19,442 bases of DNA from assembly GCA_905233515.1 (NCBI GenBank), contig CAJOEQ010000001.1, positions 1 to 19,442 of the forward strand. The letters run 5' to 3'. Source of the stretch: an uncultured Synergistales bacterium. GTDB lineage: Bacteria > Synergistota > Synergistia > Synergistales > Aminobacteriaceae. Both the position numbers and the translations under genes were made by a program. Positions 1-17,405 of the stretch are shown one piece after another. Each line of letters starts with the position of its first letter. The first letter of the stretch is position 1. Under the pieces are notes generated by a model. That model saw only the letters and a program-made list of their open reading frames with translations. It searched no databases and was not told the origin of the DNA.

Positions 1-22
1 AAAGTTAATAAAAGTCTATGAA

Positions 23-74
23 AATCTTTACCGAATCGAGGCGAATCTTTACCGAAAAAGGGGCAATCTTTCCC
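23..74. repeat. Three direct repeats at 21-bp spacing
   Basis: AATCTTTACCGAA occurs exactly at 23-35 and again at 44-56; a degenerate third copy (AATCTTTCCC) begins at 65. The starts 23, 44 and 65 are exactly 21 bp apart, about two helical turns, so bound proteins would sit on the same DNA face. The array could be an operator, an iteron-like site or one unit of a dispersed intergenic repeat. On the minus strand the period gives a seven-residue echo (SVKIRLD / SVKIFID), which I think is a by-product. No function can be assigned. Confidence 0.6.
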
Positions 75-112
75 TGGCATTTTTTGACGGAAAAATAATT
101 ATATATATACAC

Positions 113-141
113 TTGACAAATCACGCAGACAGGGGGATAAA
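113..141 (+). promoter_or_regulatory. Weak sigma-70-type promoter candidate
   Basis: A perfect -35 box TTGACA at 113-118 is followed after 17 bp by GATAAA at 136-141, which matches TATAAT at four of six positions. The spacing is ideal but the -10 is poor, and this AT-rich stretch offers many chance matches. If used, it would give a leader of about 240 nt before rpsL. Confidence 0.3.
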
Positions 142-275
142 TTTTCATGAAATATCGCAAAATAATTAAATCCTTCCTATTTATATATAGCATAAATAAA
201 AATGTTTCTTCCTATTATAATAGCGTCAAAATAATTTCATGATAAATCAACTCTAAAAAAATTTCTCGCATAAAT

Positions 276-305
276 TTGACATAAAGCCCGTTAATTTGCT
301 AAGAT
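276..305 (+). promoter_or_regulatory. Probable main promoter of the str operon
   Basis: TTGACA at 276-281 is a perfect -35 box. After 18 bp comes TAAGAT at 300-305, preceded by TGC at 297-299, which forms an extended -10 (TGn) element. Transcription would start near 312, giving a leader of about 80 nt that contains the SD site and the hairpin before rpsL. This is the best promoter I find for the downstream genes. The call rests on motif matching only. Confidence 0.6.
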
Positions 306-349
306 TATCGCGCTGTTAATTCAGTAAATTTTTATCGAGCTATAAAGAA

Positions 350-356
350 GGGAGGA
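350..356 (+). promoter_or_regulatory. Strong SD site unusually far from the rpsL start
   Basis: GGGAGGA is a near-perfect complement to the 16S rRNA 3' end, yet 36 nt separate its GGAGG core (351-355) from the TTG start at 392. No in-frame start lies closer: the frame of rpsL is closed upstream by TAG at 368-370. The hairpin at 360-385 fills the gap, and folding it would leave 8-10 nt between SD and TTG. Confidence 0.65.
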
Positions 357-359
357 AGT

Positions 360-385
360 GCAAAAGCTAGTTTGCTAGATTTTGC
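360..385 (+). promoter_or_regulatory. Hairpin between SD and start codon of rpsL
   Basis: GCAAAA (360-365) pairs with TTTTGC (380-385), and CTAG (367-370) pairs with CTAG (375-378), around one G-A mismatch (366/379) and a TTTG loop (371-374). U359 and G386 could add a wobble pair. The structure occupies almost exactly the excess spacer between SD and the TTG start. It probably brings the two together, and it could be a control point for S12 synthesis. No U-tract follows, so it does not look like a terminator. Confidence 0.6.
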
Positions 386-391
386 GAAAAG

Positions 392-744
392 TTGCCAACA
401 ATTAATCAATTAGTCCGGCTTGGACGACAAGAAAAGAAATCTAAAAGCAATTCTCCGGCATTACAAGGAAATCCGGCCCGCCGTGGTGTCTGCACTAGAG
501 TTTATACTATTACACCCAAGAAACCGACTTCAGCCTTAAGGAAAGTTGCCCGTGTTAGATTAACGAACGGTATCGAAGTTACTTCATACATTCCCGGAAT
601 TGGCCATAATTTACAGGAACACTCTGTAGTTCTCGTGAGAGGCGGCCGCGTTAAAGTATTAGAGGGACTTTAGACTGCGGAGGCGTTGAAAACCGCAAAA
701 GAAGCCGCTCAAAATATGGCGCAAGACGACCTAAAGCGAACTAG
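392..744 (+). pseudogene. rpsL: Ribosomal protein S12, frameshifted by a 25-nt loss
   Basis: S12 (uS12) lines the decoding centre of the 30S subunit. From the TTG start ([12 protein letters not shown]) the frame encodes a normal S12 as far as the GGRVK motif at 650-655, including the [11 protein letters not shown] segment. It then falls out of frame and stops at 671-673 after 93 residues. From 658 the other frame gives [19 protein letters not shown] and the usual basic C-terminus, ending in TAG at 742-744. Family alignment puts the residues DLPGVRYH plus one more in between; they are absent. The region is 353 nt, and adding 25 gives 126 codons, the usual S12 length. The missing loop includes the Asp that RimO methylthiolates in E. 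coli. S12 without this loop should not work, so this is either a sequence or assembly error or a non-functional copy. The annotated start is supported by family homology and the upstream in-frame stop. Confidence 0.9.
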
Positions 745-759
745 GAGGATTTATAAATC

Positions 760-1230
760 ATGCCGAGAAAAGGACATATCAAGAAAAGACCCCCCGAGCC
801 TGATATTAGATTTAATAATCCGGCCGCATCAAGATTTATTAGTGCCTTGATGATGGGTGGTAAACGCAGTCTCGCTGAAAGAATTTTTTACGGCGCTTTA
901 GAACAGGCTGCGGAAAAATTAGGCGTTGAACCTTTCGAAGTATTTGATAAAGCTATGGCAAATGTTACGCCTCAAATAGAAGTCAGACCCAGAAGAGTGG
1001 GCGGCGCAACTTATCAAGTACCAGTCGAAGTAACACCCGAGCGCGGCGTTCAGCTTTCTATTAGATGGATTGTAATGTACGCTAGAGCTAAAAAGGGTAT
1101 GCCTATGAGTGAAAGACTTATGCGTGAATTAATGGACGCTTACAAAAACGAAGGTGCTTCAATCAAACGCCGTGAAGATACTCACAGAATGGCCGAAGCT
1201 AATAGAGCGTTCGCACATTATCGCTGGTAA
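760..1230 (+). CDS. rpsG: 30S ribosomal protein S7
   Basis: S7 (uS7) nucleates assembly of the 30S head by binding the 3' major domain of 16S rRNA and borders the E site. The product is 156 residues, the normal length. It carries the family landmarks: MPRKG start, the KRSLAERIFYGAL helix, VRPRRVGGATYQVP, the RWIVMYAR stretch and the C-terminal HRMAEANRAFAHYRW. AGGAGG at 743-748 lies over the rpsL TAG stop with good spacing to the ATG. In E. coli S7 represses translation of its own operon from the rpsL-rpsG junction; here only 15 nt separate the genes and I see no matching structure. The gene is intact, unlike its two neighbours. Confidence 0.98.
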   Translation: MPRKGHIKKRPPEPDIRFNNPAASRFISALMMGGKRSLAERIFYGALEQAAEKLGVEPFEVFDKAMANVTPQIEVRPRRVGGATYQVPVEVTPERGVQLSIRWIVMYARAKKGMPMSERLMRELMDAYKNEGASIKRREDTHRMAEANRAFAHYRW

Positions 1231-1246
1231 GAGGAGTTAATTTTTT

Positions 1247-3284
1247 TTGGAAATCAGCAAAGTTAGAAATATAGGTATCGCCGCACATATCGACGCAGGG
1301 AAAACTACGACAAGCGAGCGAATTCTATATTACACAGGAAGTAATTATAAAGTCGGTGAAGTCCACGAAGGAACTGCAACAATGGACTGGATGGAACAAG
1401 AAAGAGAACGCGGAATTACTATCACTTCAGCGGCTACAACTTGCGCGTGGAAAGGTCATACTATAAATTTAATTGATACGCCAGGACACGTGGATTTTAC
1501 AGTCGAAGTTGAGAGATCTATGCGCGTTCTTGATGGAGCTGTTGCAGTATTTTGCGCCGTCGGTGGGGTTGAGCCTCAATCTGAAACTGTTTGGCGGCAG
1601 GCTGATAAATATCACGTCCCGAGAATTGCTTTTGTTAATAAAATGGACAGAATTGGAGCAGATTTTCAGGCTGTTGTTAAAGCCATGCGTGAAAGATTAG
1701 GAGCAAACGCTATACCCTTGCAATTACCAATCGGAGCAGAAGATGATTTTTCCGGAGTTGTTGACTTAATCGAGCAAAAAGCATTTTATTTTTCGGGAGT
1801 GTTAGGTCAGGCACCTGCTGAAGGTAATATCCCGCCTGAATTAGCCATGACTGCTAAACAAGGACGAGAAAATATTATCGAGGCTTTATCTGATTTCAGC
1901 GACGATATTATGACACTTTATCTTGAGGGGAAGCCTGTAAGCTCTGAATTAATACGCAAAAATCTACGCGAGGCAGTAATAAATCTTAAAGCCGTCCCAG
2001 TTCTTTGCGGGTCTGCTTTCAAAAATAAATGCATTGAGCCTTTACTTGACGCAGTTGTTGAATATTTGCCCAGTCCTGCAGATTTGCCGCCCGTTCAGGG
2101 TTTTAGTCCTGCTAATCCCGATGAAATTATCGAACGACACAGCAAAGTTGATGAGCCTTTTACTGCTCTTGCATTCAAAATCGCTGTTGACCCGTTTTTA
2201 GGTAAAATATTTTTCCTGCGTGTTTATTCGGGGAAACTCGAAAAGGGCAGCACTCTCTACAATCCTACTTCAGGACAAAAAGAGAGAATTGGCCGTATCA
2301 TGAGAATGCATTCTAACAAGCGCGAAGATATTGACGCAATGGAGGCCGGTATGATTGTCGCTGTTCCTTCACTTAAAAGCACTAAGACGGGCGATACTCT
2401 TTGCGACGAAAATAATCAAATTGTTCTAGAGAGCTTAGAATTTCCTGAGCCTGTTATTTCTCTAGCTGTTGAGCCTGCTACTCAGCAAGATAAAGTAAAA
2501 TTGTCTAAAGGTTTGAACGCCTTAGCTGACGAAGACCCTACTTTTAGAGTTCACAACGACGAAGAGAGCGGCCAAACTGTTATTTCAGGAATGGGAGAAT
2601 TACACCTAGAAATAATTGTAGACAGGCTTAAACGTGAATTCGGCTCAAGTCTCATACAGGGAAGCAATACGCAAATCAGCCAGCGCAGAAGGCAAATATA
2701 TTCGTCAATCAGGCGGACGCGGTCAATACGGTCATGTTGTATTCGAAATTGAGCCAATCGAAGGCAATAAATACGAATTTCAAGATAAAATTGTCGGCGG
2801 CGTTGTTCCTAAAGAATATATTACAGCTGTTGAAAAAGGTCTCGAAGAAGCTGTACAATCAGGCGTTTTAGGCGGTTATCCTGTTATAGGCGTAAAAGTT
2901 ACTCTTGTTGACGGTTCTTATCACGAAGTCGACAGCTCAGAAATGGCCTTCAAAATTGCCGCGTCTATGGGCTTTAAAGAGGCTATGAAACGCGCTGACC
3001 CCGTTTTAATGGAGCCCGTTATGTCCGTTGAAGTCGTTACTCCTGAAGAATATTTAGGTGATGTAATAGGCGATATTTCAGCAAGACGCGGACGCATTGA
3101 CGGGATGGACGTACGAGCCAACGCAAGAATTGTTAAAGCCTTTGTGCCTTTAGTCGGCATGTTCGGCTATGCTACTGACTTGAGAAGCAAGACTTCAGGA
3201 CGAGCTAATTACTCTATGCAATTTGACCATTACGAACAAACACCCGCAGAAATTAGTGATAAAATTTTGCAGGGGAAAATTTAA
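1247..3284 (+). pseudogene. fusA: Elongation factor G, frameshifted by a 23-nt loss
   Basis: EF-G is the GTPase that drives translocation of tRNA and mRNA. The first frame (1247-2644, 466 codons) has the G motifs [27 protein letters not shown] and GSAFKN, then domains II and III up to LKREFG. It then runs out of frame to a stop at 2752. The second frame resumes at [10 protein letters not shown] (2646) and continues through domain IV ([10 protein letters not shown]) and domain V to TAA at 3284. Between REFG and QVSYRE the family has eight residues (similar to VEANVGKP); only one base lies there. Restoring 23 nt gives 687 codons, a normal EF-G length. The start is TTG, with GAGGAG at 1231-1236, placing the homologous [10 protein letters not shown] at the N-terminus. 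As for rpsL, an assembly error or a broken copy is likelier than a functional product. Confidence 0.9.
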
Positions 3285-3305
3285 TTTTTAAGGAGTTGCT
3301 AAATT

Positions 3306-4508
3306 ATGGCAAAAGAAAAATTCGAACGCACTAAACCTCATTTAAATATCGGAACTATCGGACATATTGACCACGGCAAGACTACTTTAACAGCGGCAAT
3401 TACTAAATGTTTAGCTACTGAGAGTTACGCCGAATACACAGCTTATGACATGATTGATAAAGCACCTGAAGAGAGAGAGCGCGGAATTACTATTAATATC
3501 GCTCACGTTGAATATCAGACAGATAAACGCCATTATGCTCATATCGACTGCCCCGGACATGCTGACTATATCAAGAATATGATTACCGGTGCCGCTCAAA
3601 TGGACGGTGCTATTTTAGTTGTCAGTGCCGCAGACGGCCCTATGCCTCAAACTCGTGAACACGTCTTATTAGCTCGTCAGGTCAACGTCCCCGCCCTCGT
3701 CGTTTTCATGAATAAGACTGACCAAGTCGACGACCCCGAATTGCTTGACCTCGTAGAAATGGAAGTCCGTGAACTTCTCAGTAAATACGAATTCCCCGGC
3801 GATGACATTCCTATTATTCGCGGTTCAGCTCTTGAAGTCCTCGAGAAAGGCACAGGCAAGAAAGATGACCCAATTTGTAAGCCCATTTTTGACTTAATGG
3901 ACGCTTGCGATAATTTCATCCCTGACCCTGTACGTGAAATCGATAAGCCCTTCTTAATGCCCATTGAAGACGTTTTCACAATCTCAGGCCGCGGCACTGT
4001 TGTTACTGGTCGTGTTGAGCGTGGAGTTATCAACGCAGGCGAGCCCGTCGAAATCGTAGGAGTTAAGCGCGATACTACAAAAACTGTTGCGACTTCTTTA
4101 GAAATGTTCAGAAAAATTCTTGACAGCGCTGAAGCAGGCGATAACGTAGGCGTTCTTTTACGCGGCATTGATAAAGCTGATGTCGAACGCGGCCAAGTTC
4201 TAGCAAAACCAGGCACAGTTACACCTCATACGAAATTTAAAGGCGAAGTATACGTACTCAAGAAAGAAGAGGGCGGCCGTCATACTGCGTTTTTTGCAGG
4301 CTATAAACCGCAATTCTACTTCAGAACTACAGACGTTACAGGCAATATTAAATTACCTGAAGGCGTTGAAATGGTAATGCCCGGCGATAATGCTACGTTT
4401 GAAGTCGATTTAATCGTACCAATCGCTATGGAGGAAGGGTTGCGCTTTGCAGTTCGTGAAGGCGGCCACACAGTAGGCGCAGGCGTTGTTACAAGTATTA
4501 TAGAGTAA
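3306..4508 (+). CDS. tuf: Elongation factor Tu
   Basis: EF-Tu is the GTPase that carries aminoacyl-tRNA to the ribosomal A site. The 400-residue product is full length and intact. The G-domain motifs are [27 protein letters not shown] (the usual bacterial form is NKCD or NKVD) and RGSALE, followed by the two beta-barrel domains with [14 protein letters not shown] and the C-terminal [13 protein letters not shown]. Ile in GHIDHGKT and the [19 protein letters not shown] segment may help to place the lineage. It follows fusA by 21 nt with an AAGGAG site and precedes rpsJ by only 6 nt. This links the str and S10 operons. Confidence 0.98.
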
Positions 4509-4514
4509 ATTATC

Positions 4515-4820
4515 ATGGCACGTAAAATCAGAATAAGATTAAAATCTTTTGATCATAGAGTGCTAGACACATCAGCCGCCCAAATAGCACAAACAGCAAA
4601 CTCTACAGGCGCGCGCGTCTCTGGTCCTATTCCCTTACCTACTGAAATAGGCCGCATTACTATTTTGAAATCGCCTCATAAGGACAAAGACGCACGAGAA
4701 CAGTTCGAAATGCGCACTCACAAAAGATTAATAGATATTATTGAGCCAACACAAAGGACTATGGACGCACTGATGCAGTTAAATTTAGCGTCAGGTGTAG
4801 ACATACAGATAAAATTTTAA
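4515..4820 (+). CDS. rpsJ: 30S ribosomal protein S10
   Basis: S10 (uS10) sits in the 30S head and, as NusE, also joins the transcription antitermination complex with NusB. The 101-residue product has the normal length and the landmarks [14 protein letters not shown], the [19 protein letters not shown] loop and the terminal GVDIQIKF. The ATG starts 6 nt after the tuf stop, and no recognisable SD lies in the gap or the end of tuf, so translation probably depends on coupling to tuf. It is the first gene of the S10 segment. No separate promoter or L4-responsive leader has room to exist before it. Confidence 0.97.
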
Positions 4821-4843
4821 TTATTAAGGAGAATTAATTAATT

Positions 4844-5470
4844 ATGTCAATAGGGATTCTGGGGAAAAAACTCGGAATGACACAGATTTATGACTCAGAG
4901 GGACAGGCCGTAGCTGTTACGGTCGTCTCTGCTGGGCCGTGCTCTGTAGTTGCTCTGCGTACCCCTGAACAGAACGGCTATTCTGCTGTTCTTCTCGGCT
5001 TTGAGTCAGTAAAGGCTCATAAGCTGTCCAAACCGCAAAAAGTTATGTTCGAGAAATTAAAGCTCGAACCAAAGAGGACTCTTAGAGAATTCAGAGTCAA
5101 TGACGTTAAGCCCTATGAAGTCGGATCGGAAATCAAAGTAGATTTATTCACAGCCGGCGAAAAAATTAACGTCAAAGGTATATCAAAGGGTAAAGGTTTC
5201 GCAGGAGTTATCAAGCGTCATCATATGGGAGGCCAGCAATTTTCACACGGTACTTCGGTCGAACATAGACACGGAGGCTCAAGCGGTGCAATTTCCTATC
5301 CCGGCCGCGTTTTTCCTGGTAAAAGAATGCCCGGCCACATGGGAAGCGACAAAGTTACAGTCAAAAATCTTACTGTAATGGCCGTTGACGTTGAGAATAA
5401 TTTAATTCTAGTAAAAGGTGCAGTTCCAGGCGCAAAAAATAGCCTCATTGCCCTCTACAAGAAAGACTAA
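4844..5470 (+). CDS. rplC: 50S ribosomal protein L3
   Basis: L3 (uL3) is an early assembly protein of the 50S subunit whose extended loop reaches toward the peptidyl transferase centre. The 208-residue product shows the N-terminal GILGKKLGMTQIY, the central KGFAGVIKRHHMGGQ, the loop with HGTSVEHRHGGSSG and the PGRVFPGKRMPGHMG motif, then the second barrel with VKGAVPGAKN. AAGGAG lies 5' of the ATG in a 23-nt gap after rpsJ. Length and motifs are normal. Confidence 0.98.
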   Translation: MSIGILGKKLGMTQIYDSEGQAVAVTVVSAGPCSVVALRTPEQNGYSAVLLGFESVKAHKLSKPQKVMFEKLKLEPKRTLREFRVNDVKPYEVGSEIKVDLFTAGEKINVKGISKGKGFAGVIKRHHMGGQQFSHGTSVEHRHGGSSGAISYPGRVFPGKRMPGHMGSDKVTVKNLTVMAVDVENNLILVKGAVPGAKNSLIALYKKD

Positions 5471-5486
5471 AGGGGGTAAAGAGATT

Positions 5487-6113
5487 ATGCCATTCGTAAA
5501 AGTCTACGAGATAAACGGAGACCGGGCCGGAGAAATGGAACTATCAGACAAAGTATTTAATAATCCCGTTCATATGTCAGCAATCCATCAAGTTATAACC
5601 GCTCATTTAGCAAATTGCAGACAAGGCACCCACAACACAAAGACGCGCGGCGATGTCTCAGGAGGCGGCAAAAAGCCATGGCGGCAAAAACACACTGGGC
5701 GGGCTCGTCAAGGTTCTACACGTTCACCGATTTGGACACATGGTGGAGTAGCGCACGGACCTCATCCGCGAGATTATCATCAGAAAGTGAATAAAAAAGT
5801 ACGTCAGCTTGCATTAAAGAGTGTCTTATCTGACAAAGTGCGTGAAGAGTTAGCGGCGGTTGTAAAAGTTTTTGAGACGCTGGGAACACCCTCAACAAAG
5901 ACGATACAGGCCTTAATAAACGCGCTAGGATTTGGCAAAACTTTAATAATCTACAATGAGAATGCAAAAAACGTAACGCGTTCAGTGCGAAATTTATCGG
6001 GCGCGAAATGCATAAATGTATCAAGCATAAACGTATATGATATATTGAATGCAAAAAATTTGATATTAACGCCTGAAGTAGTAGCGAAAATTGAGGAGGT
6101 ATATTCAGCATGA
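5487..6113 (+). CDS. rplD: 50S ribosomal protein L4
   Basis: L4 (uL4) lines the polypeptide exit tunnel and in E. coli also represses the S10 operon. I start it at MPFVKVYEINGD, behind AGGGGGT at 5471-5477. An upstream in-frame ATG at 5418 would add residues lying inside rplC and unlike the family. The 208-residue product contains the tunnel loop around GGGKKPWRQKHTGRARQG (about residues 62-79) and GVAHGPHPRDY, then a Rossmann-like C-terminal half. It overlaps the start of rplW by 4 nt (ATGA), and it is the only clear TGA stop in the cluster. Confidence 0.97.
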   Translation: MPFVKVYEINGDRAGEMELSDKVFNNPVHMSAIHQVITAHLANCRQGTHNTKTRGDVSGGGKKPWRQKHTGRARQGSTRSPIWTHGGVAHGPHPRDYHQKVNKKVRQLALKSVLSDKVREELAAVVKVFETLGTPSTKTIQALINALGFGKTLIIYNENAKNVTRSVRNLSGAKCINVSSINVYDILNAKNLILTPEVVAKIEEVYSA

Positions 6114-6406
6114 ATTTAACTGCTCATGATATTATAATCAGGCCTGTAATCACGGAGAAATCGAGCGCATTAATGGGCTTCAACAAATACACTTTTGAAG
6201 TACACAAGAGTGCGGACAAGATACAAATACGCAAGGCCGTTGAAGAAGTCTTTAAAGTCCAAGTTATGGGCGTGAACACAATGAACGTAAAGGGCAAATT
6301 ACGCCGCAGAGGGATGACGAAAGGCTATACACGTTCATGGAAAAAAGCGATAGTAACGCTTAAGACCGGCCAAAGTATAGAATTTTTCGAGGGTGCCTCG
6401 ATATAA
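6110..6406 (+). CDS. rplW: 50S ribosomal protein L23
   Basis: L23 (uL23) surrounds the tunnel exit and is the docking site for trigger factor, SRP and the Sec translocon. The 98-residue product has the family signature IIRPVITEKSSALM, KYTFEVHKSADKIQIRKAVEEVF and the loop GKLRRRGMTKGYTRSWKKA. Its ATG overlaps the rplD TGA stop, with GAGGAGG-like purines (around 6092-6098) in the rplD end serving as SD. This arrangement implies translational coupling. Confidence 0.97.
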   Translation: MNLTAHDIIIRPVITEKSSALMGFNKYTFEVHKSADKIQIRKAVEEVFKVQVMGVNTMNVKGKLRRRGMTKGYTRSWKKAIVTLKTGQSIEFFEGASI

Positions 6407-6421
6407 TTAGGAGATTTAGAG

Positions 6422-7249
6422 ATGTCTATAAAACAATTTAAGCCGTATACACCTGGCCGCCGACAAATGACTATACAAGGGCGAGAAGATATTACAGCAG
6501 ATAAGCCTGAACGCTCATTAATAGTGCATTTACGCAAGCACGGAGGCCGCAATAACACGGGACGAATAACAATGCGTCATATCGGGGGCGGTCATCGTCG
6601 TGCATATCGTATAATAGATTTCAAGCGTGATAAAATCGGCATTCCCGGCAAAGTAGCAACGATTGAATACGACCCTAACAGAAACGCCCGAATAGCATTA
6701 ATTAATTACGTTGACGGCGAAAAGCGTTATATAATTCTGCCCAAAGGCCTAAATGTCGGCGATATGATTTATTCAGGTGCAGACAGTGATATAACGCCCG
6801 GAAATGCTTTAAAGCTGAAGGATATTCCCGTCGGAACGTTTATTCATAATATAGAGTTACAACCGGGCGGCGGAGCTAAATTAGTACGTTCGGCAGGAAC
6901 AAGCGCGCAGTTAATGTCAAAAGAAGGCAAATACGCTTATATCAGAATGCCGAGCAATGAGTTACGATTAATTTTGCTTGAATGCATGGCCACCGTGGGA
7001 CAAGTCGGCAATGAAGATTATGATAATATTTCACTGGGTAAAGCCGGAAAAATGCGCTGGAGAGGTCGCCGGCCTGTAGTTCGCGGAATGGTAATGAACC
7101 CTGTAGATCACCCTATGGGCGGCGGAGAAGGCAAAAGCAAATCCAACAAGCACCCAGTCTCACCATGGGGGACACCTGCAAAGGGTTATAAAACTAGAAA
7201 ACGCAAGCCGTCTGATAGATTAATAGTTCGCAGGCGTTATGATAAGTAA
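6422..7249 (+). CDS. rplB: 50S ribosomal protein L2
   Basis: L2 (uL2) is one of the most conserved 50S proteins and is needed for subunit association and peptidyl transferase activity. The 275-residue product has the N-terminal [13 protein letters not shown], the central RNA-binding domain with [17 protein letters not shown], and the C-terminal [16 protein letters not shown] carrying the conserved His of VDHP. It ends with the basic [13 protein letters not shown]. An AGGAG site sits in the 15-nt gap after rplW. Confidence 0.98.
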
Positions 7250-7265
7250 AAGGAGCTGAAGATAA

Positions 7266-7535
7266 ATGCGCTCAACAAAGAAGGGGCCTTTTGTCGAACA
7301 AAGGCTCTTAGACAGAATAGAAGCGATGAACGTATCAGGCAATAAAAAAGTTGTCAAAACATGGTCAAGACGTTCAACGGTAGTGCCTCAAATGATTGGA
7401 CATACAATAGCGGTGCATAATGGGAAAATGCATTTGCCTGTGTATATCAGTGAGAACATGGTAGGGCATAAGCTCGGCGAGTTCGCACCAACGCGCAGAT
7501 TTGGACATCACGCCGGACAGGACAAGAAGAAATAA
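7266..7535 (+). CDS. rpsS: 30S ribosomal protein S19
   Basis: S19 (uS19) forms part of the 30S head with S13 and contacts the A-site region and bridge B1a. The 89-residue product is normal in length and shows [15 protein letters not shown], the conserved [23 protein letters not shown] and [13 protein letters not shown]. An AGGAG site precedes the ATG in the 16-nt gap behind rplB. Confidence 0.98.
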
Positions 7536-7553
7536 GCGGGAGGAAATTTTTAG

Positions 7554-7901
7554 ATGGCAGATAAGAAAATAGCCGTAGCAATGACTAAGAACGCCAGAAT
7601 AAGCCCGTATAAAGTCCGTCAGGTTTTAGAGCTTATACGTGGTAAGAGTGCAGAGAAAGCCGTAATTACGTTAAAATTCAGCGATAAGAGAGCCGCCGGA
7701 ATAATCTTAAAAGTTTTAAACAGTGCGATGGCGAACGCTGAACACAATTACGGGATGGACTTAGACAAGTTATATATATGTGAGGCCTATGCAAATCAGG
7801 GCGCAATGATGAAGAGATTTAGACCTGTATCAATGGGACGCGCTCATCCTTATGTGCATAAGACATCGCATGTAGTAATAAAGCTCGGCGAGCGTAATTA
7901 G
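7554..7901 (+). CDS. rplV: 50S ribosomal protein L22
   Basis: L22 (uL22) binds all domains of 23S rRNA and its beta-hairpin forms the exit-tunnel constriction together with L4. The 115-residue product begins with a short lysine-rich segment, then ARISPYKVRQVLELIRGKS and the hairpin region around NQGAMMKRFRPVSMGRAHPY (about residues 81-100), ending VVIKLGERN. GGGAGG lies before the ATG. Length and motifs are normal. The stop is TAG. Confidence 0.97.
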   Translation: MADKKIAVAMTKNARISPYKVRQVLELIRGKSAEKAVITLKFSDKRAAGIILKVLNSAMANAEHNYGMDLDKLYICEAYANQGAMMKRFRPVSMGRAHPYVHKTSHVVIKLGERN

Positions 7902-7919
7902 TAGGAGGAAATTTTTTAA

Positions 7920-8603
7920 ATGGGACAGAAAGTTCACCCAGTAGGCTACCGTTTAGGAGTTTCAAGCGAATTTCAATCAAGATGGTACGCCGATAAAAAG
8001 AATTACGCGAAGAAGTTACACGAAGATTTAAAGTTGCGTAAATACATAATGAAGAAATGGGAAGGCGCGGGGATTTCGCGAATAGAGATAGAACGCGTCG
8101 GGCCTGTTGTAAGATTTACAATTTCTACAGCTAGACCTGGCGTAGTAATCGGCAAAGGCGGTAACGAAATTCAGAATATCAAGAATGAATTACAGGCTAT
8201 AACCGGCGGAAAAGTAATGGTAAACGTTCACGAAATCAAGAACCCCGACGTAGAAGCCCAGTTAGTAGCTGAAGGAATAGCAAGTTCACTCGAACGCCGA
8301 GTATCATTCAGACGAGCAATGAAGCAGGCAATTTTTAGAGCGACTAAAGCCGGAGTTAAAGGCATTAAAGCTCAAGTTGCAGGACGTTTAGGCGGAGCAG
8401 AAATCGCGCGAACAGAATGGTACAACGAGGGACAATTGCCATTATCGACGATAAAAGCAGATATAGATTACGGCTTTGCAGAGGCAGTAACAATGTACGG
8501 CGTAATCGGTTGCAAAGTCTGGATATATCGCGACAGACAAAACGAGAAAGCCCAAGCACCGGCACGACCGGCACGCAACAGGCCAGCAAACAAGGGGGCA
8601 TAA
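7920..8603 (+). CDS. rpsC: 30S ribosomal protein S3
   Basis: S3 (uS3) sits at the mRNA entry channel and contributes to the ribosomal helicase. The 227-residue product has MGQKVHPVGYRLGV, a type II KH domain with the GKGG loop at residues 78-81, and the C-terminal S3 domain with GRLGGAEIARTEWYNEGQLP and GVIGCKVWIYR. The last roughly 20 residues form a basic Ala/Pro-rich tail (QNEKAQAPARPARNRPANKG), a variable feature in this family. GGAGG precedes the start in an 18-nt gap after rplV. Confidence 0.98.
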   Translation: MGQKVHPVGYRLGVSSEFQSRWYADKKNYAKKLHEDLKLRKYIMKKWEGAGISRIEIERVGPVVRFTISTARPGVVIGKGGNEIQNIKNELQAITGGKVMVNVHEIKNPDVEAQLVAEGIASSLERRVSFRRAMKQAIFRATKAGVKGIKAQVAGRLGGAEIARTEWYNEGQLPLSTIKADIDYGFAEAVTMYGVIGCKVWIYRDRQNEKAQAPARPARNRPANKGA

Positions 8604-8607
8604 GTAA

Positions 8608-9027
8608 ATGTTAATGCCTAGCCGCGTGAAATATCGCAAATCTCATAGATCTCCATTGAGGGGAATATCTAAAGGCGGCACAAAAGTAGATTTCGGTGAT
8701 TTTGGAATTCAGGCACTTGAAAATGTTTGGCTGTCAGCTAGACAAATCGAGGCGGCACGTATTGCAATATCACGTAAAATGAAGAAGGGCGGCAAAATCT
8801 GGATACGCGTATTTCCTGATAGACCCTACACAAAGAAGCCTTTAGAAACTCGTATGGGTAAAGGAAAGGGCGCGCCTGAATACTGGGTAGCCGCAGTTAA
8901 AAGAGGCCGTGTATTATTTGAATTCTCCGGAATTAGTGAGGACGTAGCACAGCAGGCATTCAGGACAGCAAGCCACAAATTGCCTGTAAAAGTTCGCATG
9001 GTAGTGCGCAGTGGAGGGAGTGAATAA
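8608..9027 (+). CDS. rplP: 50S ribosomal protein L16
   Basis: L16 (uL16) is a late-assembling 50S protein near the A- and P-site tRNAs. The 139-residue product starts [14 protein letters not shown], as in the family, and holds the [20 protein letters not shown] motif. The Arg before MGKGKG corresponds to the arginine hydroxylated by RoxA/YcfD in E. coli. The SD function is supplied by AGGGGGC at the rpsC end, and only 4 nt separate the two genes. Length is normal. Confidence 0.97.
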
Positions 9028-9032
9028 GCCTG

Positions 9033-9245
9033 ATGGACGCAAACGTAAAGCCCGAGAAACTCAGAGAATTAACGCGTGAAGAGATTTCCGGCAAAATTAA
9101 AGAGTACAAGACAGAATTATTTAATCTGCGTTTTCAGAATGCCGTCGGGCACTTGAAGAACACTAGCAGAATACGTGAAGTAAGAAAGACTATAGCGAGA
9201 TTAATGACTATAGCTTCAGAAAGGGGAGCGGCAGAAAATGCCTAG
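9033..9245 (+). CDS. rpmC: 50S ribosomal protein L29
   Basis: L29 (uL29) is a small two-helix protein near the tunnel exit, next to L23. The 70-residue product has [20 protein letters not shown] followed by [20 protein letters not shown], the standard signature. It starts 5 nt after rplP, with the purine-rich GGAGGGAG of the rplP end as a rather distant SD. Its 3' end overlaps the rpsQ start by 8 nt. Confidence 0.96.
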
Positions 9246-9531
9246 TAAAGTTCGCACGGGTATAGTCGTGAGCAACAAAATGGACAAAACTATAGTCGTC
9301 CGAGTTGAACGCATGGCCGAACACCCGTTATATGGCAAGAGAATAAAGCGCGCGAAAAAGTATATAGCTCATGACGCAGAGAATAAATGCGGTTTGGGTG
9401 ATGAAGTCAAAATCAGAGAGACAAGGCCGTTAAGCAAAACTAAACGCTGGGAATTGCTTGAGATAACTAGACAAGCGCCTGTATTTGGCACTGATACGGA
9501 AGTAATTTCAGAAGGAGTTCAGGAGGGTTAA
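9238..9531 (+). CDS. rpsQ: 30S ribosomal protein S17
   Basis: S17 (uS17) is a primary 16S rRNA-binding protein with an OB fold. The 97-residue product has [38 protein letters not shown] and the motif [17 protein letters not shown]. The C-terminus runs about a dozen residues beyond the compact core, with an acidic end. The ATG overlaps the end of rpmC by 8 nt, with AGGGGAG as SD inside rpmC. Its own last codons carry the AGGAGG used by rplN. Confidence 0.97.
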
Positions 9532-9534
9532 AAC

Positions 9535-9903
9535 ATGATACAGTTGACAACAGTCTTGAATGTAGCTGATAATTCCGGCGCAAGAAAATTATTTTGCATT
9601 CAGGTAATGGGCGGCAGTAAGAGGCGTTACGGCACTATAGGCGATGTAATAGTTGCTTCCGTACGTGAGGCAATCCCGAATAGCAATATAGCAAAAGGAA
9701 GCGTCGTTAAAGCTGTTATCGTTCGCACAAAGAAAGAAATCAGGCGTAAAGATGGTACTTATGTCAGATTTGATGATAATGCCGCAGTATTAATTGACGC
9801 AAACGGCGAACCGCGTGGAACTCGTATATTTGGCCCTGTAGGTCGTGAGCTTAGAGCAAAGAAATACATGCGAATATTGTCGCTTGCTCCTGAAGTAGTC
9901 TAG
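9535..9903 (+). CDS. rplN: 50S ribosomal protein L14
   Basis: L14 (uL14) forms intersubunit bridges and is the site where the silencing factor RsfS docks. The 122-residue product is standard: [41 protein letters not shown], then [13 protein letters not shown] and the end SLAPEVV. The start lies 3 nt behind rpsQ with AGGAGG in the rpsQ end as SD. The TAG stop lies within a TAGTC pentamer repeat. In many bacteria this gene opens the spc operon; here it runs on from rpsQ without room for a promoter. Confidence 0.98.
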
Positions 9904-9911
9904 TCTAGTCT
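9897..9911 (+). repeat. TAGTC x3 tandem repeat across the rplN stop
   Basis: Three copies of the pentamer TAGTC run from the last sense codons of rplN through its TAG stop (9901-9903) into the 27-nt gap before rplX, the longest gap within the gene cluster. Slippage here would extend or shorten the spacer or add a stop, with no effect on the core protein. The AGAAGGG that serves rplX lies just after it. Confidence 0.7.
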
Positions 9912-9930
9912 AATTAGAAGGGTTAAAATC

Positions 9931-10260
9931 ATGACAGTAAGATTAAAGAAAAATGACCGTGTTAAAGTAATAACCGGAAAAGACAAGGGCAAAGAGGGCA
10001 AAATTATACGCAGAATTCCCGAACGTGATTTAATAGTCGTTGAGGGTGTAAATATGGTCTCTCGTCATGTCCGAGCAACACAGACTAACCCGCAGAGCGG
10101 CATAATCAAGCAGGAAGCACCTATTTATGCGAGTAAAGCAATGCTTGTTTGTCCACAATGCGGCAAAGCTACGAGGGTCGGAACTAGTTTTCTTGAGAGC
10201 GGCAAAAAAGTACGTGTCTGCAAGAAATGCGGCGAAATCATTGACAGGGGAGGGCTGTAA
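9931..10260 (+). CDS. rplX: 50S ribosomal protein L24, zinc-ribbon form
   Basis: L24 (uL24) starts 50S assembly by binding domain I of 23S rRNA. The 109-residue product has the N-terminal KOW motif ([20 protein letters not shown], about residues 9-28) and [18 protein letters not shown]-terminal zinc-ribbon pattern has Cys at 74, 77, 97 and 100 (CPQCGK and CKKCGE). Such four-cysteine tails are common in L24. AGAAGGG provides the SD. The protein is normal in length. Confidence 0.97.
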
Positions 10261-10263
10261 TTT

Positions 10264-10824
10264 ATGGCAATCACACCTAGAATGCAAGAAAAATACAAGA
10301 ATGAAGTCGCACCGGCATTATTGCGTGAATTCGGCTATAAAAATGTAATGCAATTGCCCAAAATTGAGAAAGTTGTAGTAAATATCGGTGTCGGAGACGC
10401 GAAACTCGATATAAAATTCATGGACGCGGCAATCAATGAATTACGCGCAATCACAGGTCAAGCACCTTTATTAAAGCGTGCAAAGAAGTCAATAGCCGGC
10501 TTTAAAGTTCGTCAAAATATGCCTGTAGCCTGTGCAGTTACATTGAGGGGCGCAAAGATGTGGGAATTTCTTGACAGATTAGTATCTCTTGCACTTCCTG
10601 CGATAAAAGATTTTCAGGGTATAACGCGAAAAGGTTTTGACGGGCGCGGAAATTATAATCTGGGCTTGAGAGAGCAGTTAATATTCCCTGAAATAAGCTA
10701 TGATAAAGTAATACGCTCACGAGGTATGAATATCTCAATAGTAACGAGCGCGAAAACTGACGAGGAAGCATTTGCCCTGTTAAAAGGCTTAGGACTTCCA
10801 TTTAGGACAGGCAGGGAGGCTTAA
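10264..10824 (+). CDS. rplE: 50S ribosomal protein L5
   Basis: L5 (uL5) binds 5S rRNA in the central protuberance and contacts P-site tRNA. The 186-residue product shows [21 protein letters not shown], the conserved [31 protein letters not shown], then [18 protein letters not shown] and the end [13 protein letters not shown]. It is a few residues longer than the usual 179. It follows rplX after 3 nt, with AGGGGAGG at the rplX end as SD. Confidence 0.98.
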
Positions 10825-10826
10825 TA

Positions 10827-11012
10827 ATGGCACGTAAGGCACTCAAGAATAAAGCAATGCAAACGCCCAAATTCAGCACGAGAAAATATAATCGTTGTCC
10901 GTTATGCGGGAGAATTCACGGTTATATCAGAATGTTTGACATGTGCAGATGCTGCTTTAGGAAAATGGCGCGTGAGGGAGTATTCCCCGGCGTTGTTAAA
11001 TCAAGTTGGTAA
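10827..11012 (+). CDS. rpsN: 30S ribosomal protein S14, zinc-binding (C+) type
   Basis: S14 (uS14) is a late-binding protein of the 30S head. The 61-residue product is the short zinc-binding type: Cys 24 and 27 (CPLCGR) and Cys 40 and 43 (CRCC) form the finger, followed by PGVVKSSW. Cys42 is an extra cysteine inside the second knuckle. In many bacteria a longer zinc-free paralogue replaces this form under zinc limitation; none lies here. The gene begins 2 nt after rplE, with GGGAGG in the rplE end as SD. Confidence 0.97.
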
Positions 11013-11034
11013 TTTGGAAGGGGTTAAAATTTAA

Positions 11035-11439
11035 ATGTACGTAAATGACCCTGTTGCAGACATGCTCACGAGAATAAGGAACGCAAATATGATATATGCA
11101 GAAAGCGTTGATATTCCCTCAAGCAAAATGAAATTAGCTCTAGCAAGAATTCTTAAAGATGAGGGCTATATACGCAATTTTAGAATGATAACGGATCCTG
11201 CAAAGCCCTACGCAGAAATTAGGATTTATTTATCATATGGAAATGGCAAAGAGAGAGTAATTCAGGGACTTAGACGCATAAGCAAGCCCGGCCGCAGAAT
11301 TTATGTAGGACGCGACAAATTGCCTGTAGTAATGGGCGGTTTAGGTTTAGCAATTCTCTCAACGTCAAAAGGTTTGAAGACCGGAACAGAAGCAAATAAA
11401 CTCGGTCTCGGCGGAGAAGTACTCTGCTATGTCTGGTAA
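11035..11439 (+). CDS. rpsH: 30S ribosomal protein S8
   Basis: S8 (uS8) is a primary binder of the central domain of 16S rRNA and in E. coli represses the spc operon at a site mimicking its rRNA target. The 134-residue product has [15 protein letters not shown], the RIYLSYG region and the C-terminal [26 protein letters not shown], all family landmarks. GGAAGGGG stands in the 22-nt gap after rpsN. I could not see an S8-type helix in the rplE start region. Confidence 0.98.
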
Positions 11440-11454
11440 GGGGGAAAAATAAAA

Positions 11455-11994
11455 ATGTCTCGTATCGGACGCAAAGCAGTAGAAATCGCAAAAGGTGCAA
11501 GCGTTGAACTCAAGGGCAATGATATTATCGTGAAAGGCCCAAAGGGTGAATTACACGCTAAATTAATGCCCGGCATAAGTTTAGAGATTGACGGCGGACT
11601 TGTTAAAGTCTCACGCGCGAATGAAGAGAAGCAAACACGCGCATGGCACGGCATGACAAGAGCATTAATCGCGAACATGATTACAGGAGTAACAGCCGGT
11701 TTCTCTAAAACTCTTGAAATCGTCGGAGTAGGTTGGAGAGCCGCATTACAGGGCAAAAAATTAGTCATGAATTTAGGCTATTCACACCCTATAGAATTCA
11801 CGCCGCCTGAAGGTATAGAAATAGTTGTAGAGAACCCGATTAAATTTCACGTAAGAGGCATAGATAAAGAATTAGTCGGGCAGACATGCGCATTGATAAA
11901 GGAATTCAGGCCGCCTGAACCTTATCACGGAAAGGGTATCAAATTCGAGAATGAATACATTATCCGCAAGGCCGGAAAGACGGGGGCAAAATAA
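11455..11994 (+). CDS. rplF: 50S ribosomal protein L6
   Basis: L6 (uL6) lies near the sarcin-ricin loop and stalk base. The 179-residue product has two duplicated domains and the signatures MSRIGRKAVEI, VKGPKGEL, GFSKTLEIVGVGWRAALQGK and the diagnostic EFRPPEPYHGKGIKFENE, ending IRKAGKTGAK. Length is normal. GGGGG purines precede the ATG in the 15-nt gap after rpsH. Confidence 0.98.
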   Translation: MSRIGRKAVEIAKGASVELKGNDIIVKGPKGELHAKLMPGISLEIDGGLVKVSRANEEKQTRAWHGMTRALIANMITGVTAGFSKTLEIVGVGWRAALQGKKLVMNLGYSHPIEFTPPEGIEIVVENPIKFHVRGIDKELVGQTCALIKEFRPPEPYHGKGIKFENEYIIRKAGKTGAK

Positions 11995-11997
11995 GAC

Positions 11998-12363
11998 ATG
12001 AAGAAGAGAAGCAGAAACGATATGCGCGTAATAAGGCATGAGAGATTACGCAAAACTCTTTCAGGCACAGCAGAAAAGCCGCGTCTATGTGTGTTCAGGA
12101 GCTTAAAGAATATTTATGTGCAAGTCATAGACGATGACAAAGGCCACACGCTTGTAAGTGCTTCAACACTTGAGAAGGCATTACAGCCCGAACTCAAAGG
12201 AGGCTGCAACATTGCGGCGGCAAAAGTCATCGGGAAGACCATAGCGGAACGTGCAAAGGCGAAGGGCATTACTTCTGTAGTATTTGACAGGGGCGGCCAT
12301 GCTTATCACGGAAAGATTCAGGCTGTAGCAGATTCAGCCCGTGAAGGAGGCTTAATATTCTAA
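11998..12363 (+). CDS. rplR: 50S ribosomal protein L18
   Basis: L18 (uL18) binds 5S rRNA with L5 and anchors it in the central protuberance. The 121-residue product starts with a basic tail ([18 protein letters not shown]), then [25 protein letters not shown], and ends [20 protein letters not shown] followed by AREGGLIF, as expected. It starts 3 nt after rplF and its TAA stop shares one base with the rpsE ATG (TAATG). Confidence 0.98.
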
Positions 12364-12899
12364 TGCCTAGAAGAGATTTAGATATAGAATTACAAGAACG
12401 AGTTGTAGCGATTAATCGTGTCAGCAAAGTCGTTAAAGGCGGTAAGAGATTTAGATTTGCAGTTCTCGTAGTAGTCGGAGATGGCTCAAGTCAAGTCGGT
12501 ACAGGTATCGGCAAAGCTAAAGAAATCGCCGAGGCAGTTAGAAAAGGTATCGAGAAAGCAAAGAAAAATTTAGTCTCAGTCAAGCATGACGGCGACACAA
12601 TCCCTCATCCTGTAGTCGGTGAATTTGGAGCAGCAAGAGTATTATTAAAGCCATCACCCGCAGGAACAGGAGTAATCGCAGGCGGAGTAGTTCGTGCAAT
12701 AATGGAACTTGGCGGCGTTAAAGACGTTGTTACAAAAGTTACAGGCCGGACATCGAACGCTATAAATGTAGCACATGCAACACTTGAGGCTATAAAGATA
12801 ACTCGTACATCGGACGAAATTATGAAATTGCGCGGGCTTGCTGCTGAAGTCGACACAGAAGAATCAGCACAGGACGATTCAGCAATAATCGGGGAGTAG
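12363..12899 (+). CDS. rpsE: 30S ribosomal protein S5
   Basis: S5 (uS5) shapes the mRNA entry channel and affects decoding accuracy. The 178-residue product has the double-stranded RNA-binding-like N-domain (QERVVAINRVSKVVKGGKRF, VGTGIGKAKEIAEAVRKG) and the C-domain with GEFGAARVLLKPSPAGTGVI and GGVVRAIMELGGVKDVVTK. The last 18 or so residues are an acidic tail, which varies in the family. It overlaps rplR by one base, which suggests termination-reinitiation coupling. GAAGGAGG at the rplR end is the SD. The stop is TAG. Confidence 0.98.
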   Translation: MPRRDLDIELQERVVAINRVSKVVKGGKRFRFAVLVVVGDGSSQVGTGIGKAKEIAEAVRKGIEKAKKNLVSVKHDGDTIPHPVVGEFGAARVLLKPSPAGTGVIAGGVVRAIMELGGVKDVVTKVTGRTSNAINVAHATLEAIKITRTSDEIMKLRGLAAEVDTEESAQDDSAIIGE

Positions 12900-12908
12900 T
12901 GAATAATC

Positions 12909-13091
12909 ATGGCCAAGATAAAAGCAAAATGGATTAAGAGCGCGATTAGTTTCCCCGAAAGACAAAAACGCACGATTAAAGCATTAGGATTTAAGAAATT
13001 AAATTCAGAAGTCGAACACGATGACACCCCGCAAATTAGGGGAATGCTTGAACACGTGCGGCACCTAGTAAAATGGGAGGTGCAAGAATAA
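12909..13091 (+). CDS. rpmD: 50S ribosomal protein L30
   Basis: L30 (uL30) is a small 50S surface protein that binds 23S rRNA domain II; some lineages lack it. The 60-residue product has KWIKSAISFPERQKRTIKAL, GFKKLNSEVEHDDTPQIRGM and the end VRHLVKWEV, the normal L30 pattern and length. A GGGGAG purine run at the end of rpsE acts as a moderately spaced SD. Its own last codons include the GGGAGG for rplO. Confidence 0.96.
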   Translation: MAKIKAKWIKSAISFPERQKRTIKALGFKKLNSEVEHDDTPQIRGMLEHVRHLVKWEVQE

Positions 13092-13093
13092 GA

Positions 13094-13540
13094 ATGATTA
13101 CATTAAATGATTTGCACCCTGCGAAGGGCAGCACTCATAAATCAAAGCGTCTCGGTCAAGGTATAGGCAGCGGGAACGGTAAGACATCCGGCAAAGGAAA
13201 TAAAGGCGATAAATCGCGAACTGGCGGCGGAGTTAGACCGGGCTTTGAAGGCGGACAAATGCCTTTGACTCGTAGGACACCTAAGCGCGGATTTAATAAT
13301 TATAGATTTGCTAAAATTTTCCAGACAGTAAATCTTGACGTGCTAGAAAAAAAATTTGATGCAGGTTCAGAAATAGATTTTGAAGTTCTTTACAAAGCCG
13401 GAATTATCAAGAAAAAATTACCCGTGAAAATTCTTGCAAATGGAGAGCTTACAAAGTCATTCAAGATAAAAGCCGCCGCATTTAGTGCAAGTGCCGCAAA
13501 GAAAATTGAGGCAGCCGGCGGAACTCATGAGGTAGCGTAA
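13094..13540 (+). CDS. rplO: 50S ribosomal protein L15
   Basis: L15 (uL15) is a late assembly protein that threads through the 50S interior. I start it at MITLNDLHPAKGS, 2 nt after the rpmD stop, with GGGAGG at 13075-13080 as SD; the earlier in-frame ATG at 13073 overlaps that SD and adds non-family residues. The 148-residue product has the Gly/Lys-rich N-terminus with RLGQGIGSGNGKTSGKGNKG, then RPGFEGGQMPLTRRTPKRGF and a globular C-domain. An A8 run at 13347-13354 is in frame (Lys-Lys) and probably of no consequence. Confidence 0.96.
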   Translation: MITLNDLHPAKGSTHKSKRLGQGIGSGNGKTSGKGNKGDKSRTGGGVRPGFEGGQMPLTRRTPKRGFNNYRFAKIFQTVNLDVLEKKFDAGSEIDFEVLYKAGIIKKKLPVKILANGELTKSFKIKAAAFSASAAKKIEAAGGTHEVA

Positions 13541-14842
13541 ATGTTCGGGTCGCTTGGAGATATTTTCAGGTTACCCGACCTGAAACGCAGAATATTTTTC
13601 ACGCTGGGAATATTATTTATTTTCCGTCTAGGAGCATATATTCCCAGTCCCGGCGTTGATCGTGCTGCTATGGCTAGTTTATTTAGCACAGGCGGCGGAG
13701 TTATGGACTTCTTGAATTTATTTTCAGGCGGTGCTCTTTCTCGATTTGGTATATTCTCGCTAGGTGTTGCGCCTTATATTAATTCAAGCATAGTCATGCA
13801 ATTATTAGTTGTAATATTTCCAGCTCTTGAGAAAATCCAGAAAGACTCAACAGACGGGCACAAAAAAATAGTTCAGTGGACTAGATACGGGGCAGTGTTA
13901 TTCGCATTAGTTCAAGCAATCGGCATGACGGCATGGCTCAGGGGACTGGGCATAATGCAGGGCGGCGCGTTTGAATGGCTCTTAGTAGTAATCACTCTAG
14001 TAGCTGGCTCAATGGCTGTAATGTGGCTCGGTGAAGAATTGACGGATCACGGAATAGGCAACGGAATATCATTATTAATTTTTGCCGGTATAGTCGCGCG
14101 AATTCCTGAGGCAATTTTACAGACTTGGAGCATGGTTCGCTTAGGCTCATTAAGCGTAATAGCCTTATTAATCGGCCTTGTCTTAATGGTAATAGTCGTA
14201 GCAGGCTGTATCTTATTGCAGGAAGGTCAAAGAAGATTACCCGTTCAGTACGCAAAAAGAGTTGTCGGCAATAAAATTTACGGCGGTCAAAGTACATTTA
14301 TCCCGTTAAAAGTCAATCAATCGGGAGTAATTCCGATAATTTTTGCGAGTTCGTTATTAATATTCCCGTACACTATTGCAAATTATTTCAGTGATAGCTC
14401 AATTGGAAGATTTATCAGCGGCTTATTTGCTCCGAATAGTTTCTTTTATATTTTGTGCTATGTAGCATTGATAATATTTTTCTCGTATTTCTACACGGCT
14501 GTAGTCTTTAATCCGACTGATATAGCAAATAACATGAAGAAATACGGCGGTTTTATACTGGGAATTCGTCCGGGCAATCCTACATCAGATTATATTACGC
14601 GTGTAATGGAGCGTATAACACTCGGCGGCGCGGTATTCTTAGCGATTATTGCGTTAATTCCTAATGTTATGTCAAGCGTGTTAAATATAAATAGTTTTTA
14701 CTTCGGCGGGACGGCAGTATTAATCGTAGTAGGTGTAGCAATGGACACGATTAATCAGATTGAGGCTCAATTACTAATGCGGCATTATGACGGAATATTA
14801 AAGAAATCCGGCGGAAGTCGCAAAGGTCTTCTAAGGGGTTAA
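13541..14842 (+). CDS. secY: Protein translocase subunit SecY
   Basis: SecY is the inner-membrane channel of the Sec translocon, working with SecE, SecG and SecA and with ribosomes. The 433-residue product is hydrophobic with about ten membrane segments. The first runs at about residues 18-38 (ending YIPSPG), followed by a plug region with GGVMDFLNLFSGGALSRFGI. The conserved stretch MWLGEELTDHGIGNGISLLI is at 161-180 and the cytoplasmic loop RRLPVQYAKR at 231-240, followed by FIPLKVNQSGVIPIIFA. Both ends face the cytoplasm, as shown by basic residues. It starts directly after the rplO stop, with no spare base, so coupling is likely. Length is normal. Confidence 0.98.
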   Translation: MFGSLGDIFRLPDLKRRIFFTLGILFIFRLGAYIPSPGVDRAAMASLFSTGGGVMDFLNLFSGGALSRFGIFSLGVAPYINSSIVMQLLVVIFPALEKIQKDSTDGHKKIVQWTRYGAVLFALVQAIGMTAWLRGLGIMQGGAFEWLLVVITLVAGSMAVMWLGEELTDHGIGNGISLLIFAGIVARIPEAILQTWSMVRLGSLSVIALLIGLVLMVIVVAGCILLQEGQRRLPVQYAKRVVGNKIYGGQSTFIPLKVNQSGVIPIIFASSLLIFPYTIANYFSDSSIGRFISGLFAPNSFFYILCYVALIIFFSYFYTAVVFNPTDIANNMKKYGGFILGIRPGNPTSDYITRVMERITLGGAVFLAIIALIPNVMSSVLNINSFYFGGTAVLIVVGVAMDTINQIEAQLLMRHYDGILKKSGGSRKGLLRG

Positions 14843-14844
14843 TC

Positions 14845-15465
14845 ATGAGGCTTGTATTATTAGGTGCGCCCGGAGCTGGTAAAGGAACTCAAGCCGCTTT
14901 GTTAAAATCAGAGCATAAACTTGCTCATATTTCGACGGGAGATATTTTCAGGCATAATCTAAAGAATAATACGCCGCTGGGAATTGAAGCAAAAAAGTAC
15001 ATGGATGCCGGCCAGTTAGTTCCCGATGAGCTTGTTAATAACATGGTAGCAGATACTTTGAAAAATTTAGAAGTTGACGGCTTTATGCTTGACGGCTTCC
15101 CTAGGACTATAGAGCAAGCGAAATTTCTTGATGGTATTACGAAAATTGACGGCGTTATTTTATTTGCTGTCTCAGATGAAGAAATTATCAAGCGTCTTAC
15201 AAGTCGTGGAGTTTGCAGGGATTGCGGACAAGTTACTAATATTAACGAGCATAAAAAATGTCCGTCCTGTAATGGCGAGCTTTATATCCGGGACGATGAC
15301 AACGAAGTAACTATTAAAAGCCGTCTAAAAGTCTTTCACGAACAGACAGAGCCATTAATCGCGTTTTATAAAGATAAAGGCTTATTGTTTGAAGTAGAAG
15401 CAGCGGGGACACCTGATGAAATTTTTTCGCGTGTTCAGAAAGTTTTGCGAAATGATAAAGATTAA
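14845..15465 (+). CDS. adk: Adenylate kinase, zinc-lid type
   Basis: Adk interconverts AMP and ATP with two ADP in the cytoplasm. The 206-residue product has the P-loop GAPGAGKGT at residues 7-15, the AMP-binding STGDIFR and DGFPRT (83-88), and the long form of the lid. The lid holds four cysteines at 124, 127, 139 and 142, the pattern that binds zinc in Gram-positive and several other bacterial Adk proteins. It follows secY by 2 nt with AAGGGG as SD. The last codons overlap the start of map by 14 nt. Confidence 0.98.
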   Translation: MRLVLLGAPGAGKGTQAALLKSEHKLAHISTGDIFRHNLKNNTPLGIEAKKYMDAGQLVPDELVNNMVADTLKNLEVDGFMLDGFPRTIEQAKFLDGITKIDGVILFAVSDEEIIKRLTSRGVCRDCGQVTNINEHKKCPSCNGELYIRDDDNEVTIKSRLKVFHEQTEPLIAFYKDKGLLFEVEAAGTPDEIFSRVQKVLRNDKD

Positions 15466-16225: not shown

Positions 16226-16230
16226 ATAAA

Positions 16231-16455
16231 ATGGCTTCCGGCAAAGAGGACGTAATGGAAATCAAGGGCGTAATATCTGAACCGCTGCCCAATGCTATGT
16301 TTAGAGTCGAGCTTGAAAACGGTCATAGAGTTTTAGCTCATGTCAGCGGCAAAATGAGAATGCACTTTATCAGAATTTTACCCGGTGATAAAGTTCTCGT
16401 TGAAATATCCCCCTATGATTTAACGAGGGGCAGAATAATTTATCGTTATAAATAA
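16231..16455 (+). CDS. infA: Translation initiation factor IF-1
   Basis: IF-1 is an OB-fold protein that binds the 30S A site during initiation. The start [15 protein letters not shown], 5 nt after map, gives 74 residues, close to the usual 72. An ATG at 16213 inside map would add six non-family residues. Landmarks are [49 protein letters not shown] and the end YRYK. The GGGGA at the map end is a plausible SD. infA next to map, with rpmJ and rpsM behind, is the usual Gram-positive-type order. Confidence 0.96.
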
Positions 16456-16473
16456 ATTTGGAGGTTATAAATC

Positions 16474-16599: not shown

Positions 16600-16606
16600 T
16601 AAATAA

Positions 16607-16984: not shown

Positions 16985-17003
16985 CGTCAGGAGGTAAACA
17001 AAC

Positions 17004-17402: not shown

Positions 17403-17405
17403 TAT

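Follow-up and report, generated by a model that had tools for sequence, protein, structure and literature searches.

Does the ribosomal protein gene rpsL of this uncultured Synergistales bacterium really lack 25 nucleotides inside its coding sequence, and if so, how could the cell make S12? The window, i.e. the whole stretch of DNA analysed here, is a complete contig of 19,442 bases from a draft genome of 2.03 Mb (353 contigs, 89.6% complete). Its gene order is rpsL, rpsG, fusA, tuf and then more ribosomal protein genes (named from the translations), and rpsL takes its normal operon position beside rpsG, fusA and tuf. By EF-G, the closest named relatives are Synergistaceae drafts; the nearest relative is the genome G008, with 90.0% identity (BLASTN, window 1-18489). 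The features discussed below are collected in the table.

The S12 frame reads MPTINQ...GGRVK, with the K at 653-655, and continues with VLEGL until the TAG at 671-673. A different frame, which starts at 658 and, by eye, ends at the TAG at 742-744, encodes the C-terminal part of S12. In a profile search PF00164 matched at 443-673 with one internal stop. The initial annotation had described an out-of-frame loss of 25 nt that removes the DLPGVRYH loop and whose restoration would give a normal S12 gene, and all three points are borne out. The alignment to G008 (L039+L040) places a 25-nt gap after 656, the 353 nt present plus 25 add up to the 378 nt of the gene in the nearest relative (L022), and the residues absent from the window S12 are DLPGVRYHII in all 30 translated S12 genes of the same genus, whereas their codons are absent from the DNA here.

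The loss was seen in none of the 42 other genomes of the genus in a search for S12 matches: 38 had an uninterrupted match, one (G012) a match cut by a contig end, and three had no match. Intact rpsL is known here from other species of the genus, and the near-identical intact copies are those of EF-G (see below). On the G008 sequence no microhomology is visible by eye at the junction, and no repeats or palindromes spanning 656/657 were listed. An exact copy of the junction was not found in public genome contigs, a scan from which records of the same genome or of near ones may be excluded. A truncated S12 common to other records was considered and rejected, as none with the ending of the window was present among seven examined (of the best 120 of 8000 scored); the S12 ends of P0130 (91 aa) and P0126 (139 aa) are altered in other ways. 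The lost 25 nt were also considered as an assembly word common to several species and hence unusually conserved, which the data do not support: their mean pairwise identity is 0.844 compared to 0.756-0.913 in other 25-nt blocks, and 18 distinct versions of the stretch occur among 25 same-length rpsL genes of the genus.

Two further residues of the window S12 are unusual. It has T in the motif KKP(N)SALRK, where 30/30 proteins of the genus have N, and Q where 28/30 have E; both are possibly consensus errors in the draft. In another draft of the genus (G012:C226, L107) the contig starts inside rpsL and fusA carries an in-frame TAG.

Table. Features of the rpsL-fusA region in the window, and losses and N runs of the same draft compared with the nearest relative G008.
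Feature	Position	Strand	Size (nt)	Details
Shine-Dalgarno GGAGG of rpsL	351..355	+		36 nt before the start codon
Hairpin between Shine-Dalgarno and rpsL start	359..386	+		Arms 359-370 and 375-386, loop 371-374
rpsL 5' part, in frame	392..656	+		TTG start at 392; runs on to the stop at 671-673
Junction in rpsL	656..657	+	25 absent	Frame broken; alignment vs G008, 25 nt between 400-nt flanks in G008
rpsL 3' part, other frame	658..744	+		IRGTLDC... to TAG 742-744; sequence reading and alignment
fusA (EF-G) 5' part, in frame	1247..2643	+		TTG start; residues 1-465 the same or almost the same in P0002-P0007
Junction in fusA	2643..2646	+	23 absent	Frame broken; alignment vs G008, flank distance 23 nt in G008
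fusA 3' part, other frame	2647..3284	+		ORFs and alignment
Loss in topoisomerase I			29 absent	Frame broken; Pfam name
Loss in Cpn60/GroEL			29 absent	Frame broken; Pfam name
Loss in EF-G paralogue			23 absent	Frame broken; Pfam name
Loss in DctP-type binding protein			29 absent	Frame broken; Pfam name
Intergenic loss			28 absent	Alignment vs G008
N run			77	True 90 nt on G008, short by 13
N run			47	True 86 nt on G008, short by 39; flanks only 72% and 81% identical
N run			36	True 53 nt on G008, short by 17
N run			10	True 37 nt on G008, short by 27
N run			7	True 22 nt on G008, short by 15

The same contig holds a second out-of-frame loss, of 23 nt in fusA near 2643. The position of this junction is ambiguous by a few bases, with one alignment placing it after 2643 and another after 2645. 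The remaining gaps between the window and G008 that fall into genes are multiples of three or sum to such, and all others are found in intergenic DNA or where genes end. Two neighbouring essential genes are thus disrupted alike. For fusA nearly identical records are available, namely six full-length EF-G proteins (P0002-P0007, 686 aa). Their first 465 residues agree with the EF-G of the window at 99.6-100% identity, their last 216 residues at 97.7-98.6%. Like the loss in rpsL, that in fusA is almost certainly a fault of the assembly.

In order to see how the draft compares with its relative elsewhere, the window and 20 further stretches of the source genome (293 kb) were aligned with 1.23 Mb of G008, including the counterpart of the window. 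Only matches with 400 or more columns and 80% or higher identity were kept and overlaps were dropped, which left 120.7 kb of the 2.03 Mb aligned (all from the window or from portions of 13 of these stretches). Within these 120.7 kb seven losses of 23-29 nt without any N lie on the side of the draft, at unrelated places, and none is a multiple of three. Six fall into genes, which are unrelated and for the most part have housekeeping roles, and all six break the frame. On the side of G008 the same alignments contain one N-less loss of 25 nt between genes and one in-frame loss of 24 nt in a gene, but zero frame-breaking losses of 23-29 nt in genes.

The gaps that are filled with Ns show a similar shortfall. 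The draft has 10 N runs, 7-85 long, in the 312.9 kb covered, and the window itself has none. For five of the ten the true length could be taken from G008, and every one of them was too short, by 13-39 nt. The seven N runs in the stretches of G008 are each a short contig read as N over its full length, and not gaps within contigs.

Short-read draft genomes are known for mis-sized scaffold joins. The present case resembles these in that bases are gone at contig joins, gaps are wrong by tens of bases and conserved frames are broken; it differs in that the joins carry no Ns and so resemble true deletions. We infer that the losses are abutted joins for which the gap estimate was zero or less. The draft would consist of short contigs joined into scaffolds. 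Wherever the estimated gap was positive, Ns would have been written, though too few. At a true gap of about 23-29 nt the estimate would have fallen to zero or below, so that the contigs would have been set end to end and the bases dropped; rpsL and fusA would each hold one such join. A loss of about 25 nt would pass silently because an underestimation by 13-39 nt leaves no Ns to write. This proposal would account for the sizes of the losses, for their disregard of frame and for a junction in rpsL that shows no microhomology. Taken together with the full-length genes in relatives (near-identical records for fusA, other species of the genus for rpsL), we consider it very probable that the 25-nt loss was made in assembly and that the gene of the organism lacks no such bases.

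A real deletion would be the alternative, and it could have happened in two ways. If the rpsL of the window were a decaying second copy, a working one would have to lie elsewhere. With a completeness of 89.6% another copy could indeed be unassembled, and one draft of the same genus, G003, does have two S12 matches. However, the only rpsL match in the 353 contigs of this incomplete draft is the one in the normal operon with rpsG, fusA and tuf, no intact second copy was found there, and losses of this kind also occur in fusA of the window and in four genes elsewhere, which makes a decaying copy highly improbable. A recent deletion present in part of the population and picked up by the assembler is also very unlikely: a mixture of strains is compatible with the data, and the two unusual residues of the window S12 would fit it, but one draft would then have to contain six or more independent deletions, all frame-breaking and of almost equal length, in mostly essential genes. 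As to G003, its two S12 matches lie on different contigs (L024, L297) and their leaders belong to different hairpin sequence classes, so that either a duplication or a stray contig is at hand.

If instead the genes were truly broken, they would have to be rescued at the RNA level or during translation. The losses are alike in size (23-29 nt), and several essential genes are affected that a process of this kind would need to rescue. Yet the initial annotation had argued that neither a frameshift nor a ribosomal bypass can supply residues that the DNA lacks, and this applies here: a programmed event of this kind leaves all residues encoded, and this locus lacks the DLPGVRYH codons. Moreover, 38 of the 42 other genomes of the genus have an uninterrupted S12 match and none has the loss, the near-identical EF-G genes are full length, the N-filled gaps of this draft fall short in the same way, and six or more genes would depend on the repair in one strain but not in its kin. 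We regard it as practically negligible. The ranking proposed initially, with assembly or sequencing error before a decaying copy and RNA-level repair last, is thus supported by the seven like losses, the short N gaps and the single rpsL match.

Taken at face value, the losses would describe a living cell without a complete S12 or EF-G and would overturn what is known about the decoding centre; recognising a recurrent drafting fault prevents such a claim. A simple check for drafts follows, namely to compare the sizes of N gaps with a relative and to look for N-less losses near the same shortfall.

With the assembly fault as the preferred explanation of the gap, the oddity of this rpsL is likely to be its start and not the missing 25 nt. 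Between the Shine-Dalgarno sequence and the start codon lies a predicted hairpin, and the same layout is found in 37 of 40 rpsL leaders of the genus (those with the hairpin are window 351-394, L002-L031, L289-L291, L293, L296 and L297; the last two were assigned by eye and are not in the pair counts). In the 35 leaders that were fitted, the linear distance from Shine-Dalgarno to start varies from 32 to 76 nt, whereas it is a near-constant 7-10 nt when the hairpin is left out. The loops are 3-44 nt long across the leaders.

The stem appears to be kept by compensating changes. The 35 leaders contain 20 distinct arm pairs, and the stems of different lineages are unrelated in sequence; nevertheless 303 of 315 cells are paired, compared to 96-191 after one arm has been displaced by 1-3, with the stem register chosen for maximal pairing by our own script. 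When each leader was shuffled 300 times, preserving base composition only, at most 5 of 300 shuffles were as good in 33 of the 34 leaders scored. The exception is L014 (G042) with 24/300, which has a weak hairpin (7/9 pairs) and in one scan a left-out spacing of 11 rather than 7. For L004 the hairpin was found in two scans while its Shine-Dalgarno sequence was mis-picked in the shuffle scoring, and the stem of L023 was over-extended in one scan. The case for the hairpin rests on comparison because folding energy alone is unimpressive: z is -1.58 for the window (15/200 shuffles as good) and -1.90 for L016 (8/200). A search of window 1-1300 against Rfam 15 gave no match with E of 1 or below, and there was none at the gathering score in the 15 loci searched of 30 (L002-L031).

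A scan of 1.23 Mb of G008 for other starts of this kind gave 2 matches among 641 start-codon candidates and 2 among 1562 control positions. Of the two matches at start-codon candidates one is rpsL and the other lies inside the rpsG coding sequence, which leaves rpsL as the only convincing candidate for a hairpin-bridged start by the narrow criteria used (GGAGG without mismatch, 22-79 nt, a score of 19 or more and 60 open codons), which have low power for weaker cases. The hairpin may also mislead gene callers into a longer N-terminus of S12. The predicted S12 P0121 (138 aa) starts with MTRKKKQIRQQRL before V-PTINQ, and its RQQRL fits the translated 3' arm GACAGCAGAGACTT.

The hairpin seems to hold the two halves of the ribosome-binding site together, and from the comparison of leaders it is probably a split site of this type. 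Such sites are described for the T4 genes 25 and 38, where the structure shortens the spacing from 27 to 11 nt in gene 25 and from 22 to 5 nt in gene 38 (PMC3014915), and for E. coli thrS, whose split site has a long hairpin (PMC3936740). The likeness is that an RNA structure between Shine-Dalgarno and start provides a working distance, in rpsL 7-10 instead of 32-76 nt. In difference to these cases rpsL encodes a ribosomal protein, the arrangement is kept over most of a genus, its stems are unrelated between lineages with loops of 3-44 nt, and its function in translation is a prediction. No report of the rpsL hairpin was found in the literature, as far as titles and the openings of abstracts show, and the available part of PMC7247131 names no S12 or Synergistetes leader.

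Other roles of the leader have to be considered. It could be bound by a protein for feedback; a sequence-specific site is disfavoured because the stem sequences are replaced between lineages. There may also be weak masking of the Shine-Dalgarno sequence by bases at the start codon, which the predicted fold of the window would permit. Tuning or sensing of the S12 supply may come on top of the split site.

The distribution of the hairpin was compared with that in the family, where 75 of 81 genomes have an S12 match. In the 19 other genera GGAGG lies exactly 7 nt from the start in 35/35 leaders. Three genomes within the genus are without the hairpin: G013 and G025 have a linear Shine-Dalgarno sequence of the same form as the other genera, and in G017 (L292) a CTG occupies the start position of S12, with GGAGG 8 nt ahead of it. 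An EF-G tree with 19 rows, of which 12 have the hairpin and 7 do not (midpoint root), places G013 and G025 together as sister to the rest, and the rest is grouped with support 97/96. The hairpin label needs two changes on this tree because G017, inside the hairpin clade, is without it; its linear leader is either a later loss or another drafting fault.

The leader hairpin is of more value than the 25-nt loss, which was correctly observed but is probably a fault of the assembly. On the present analysis, rpsL would be a new case of a split ribosome-binding site, in a ribosomal protein gene and across most of a genus. The ancestral short spacer persists in sister lineages, and the hairpin would represent an experiment of nature, spread over nearly the whole genus, on the way in which ribosomes deal with a folded stretch that separates Shine-Dalgarno and start codon in an essential gene.
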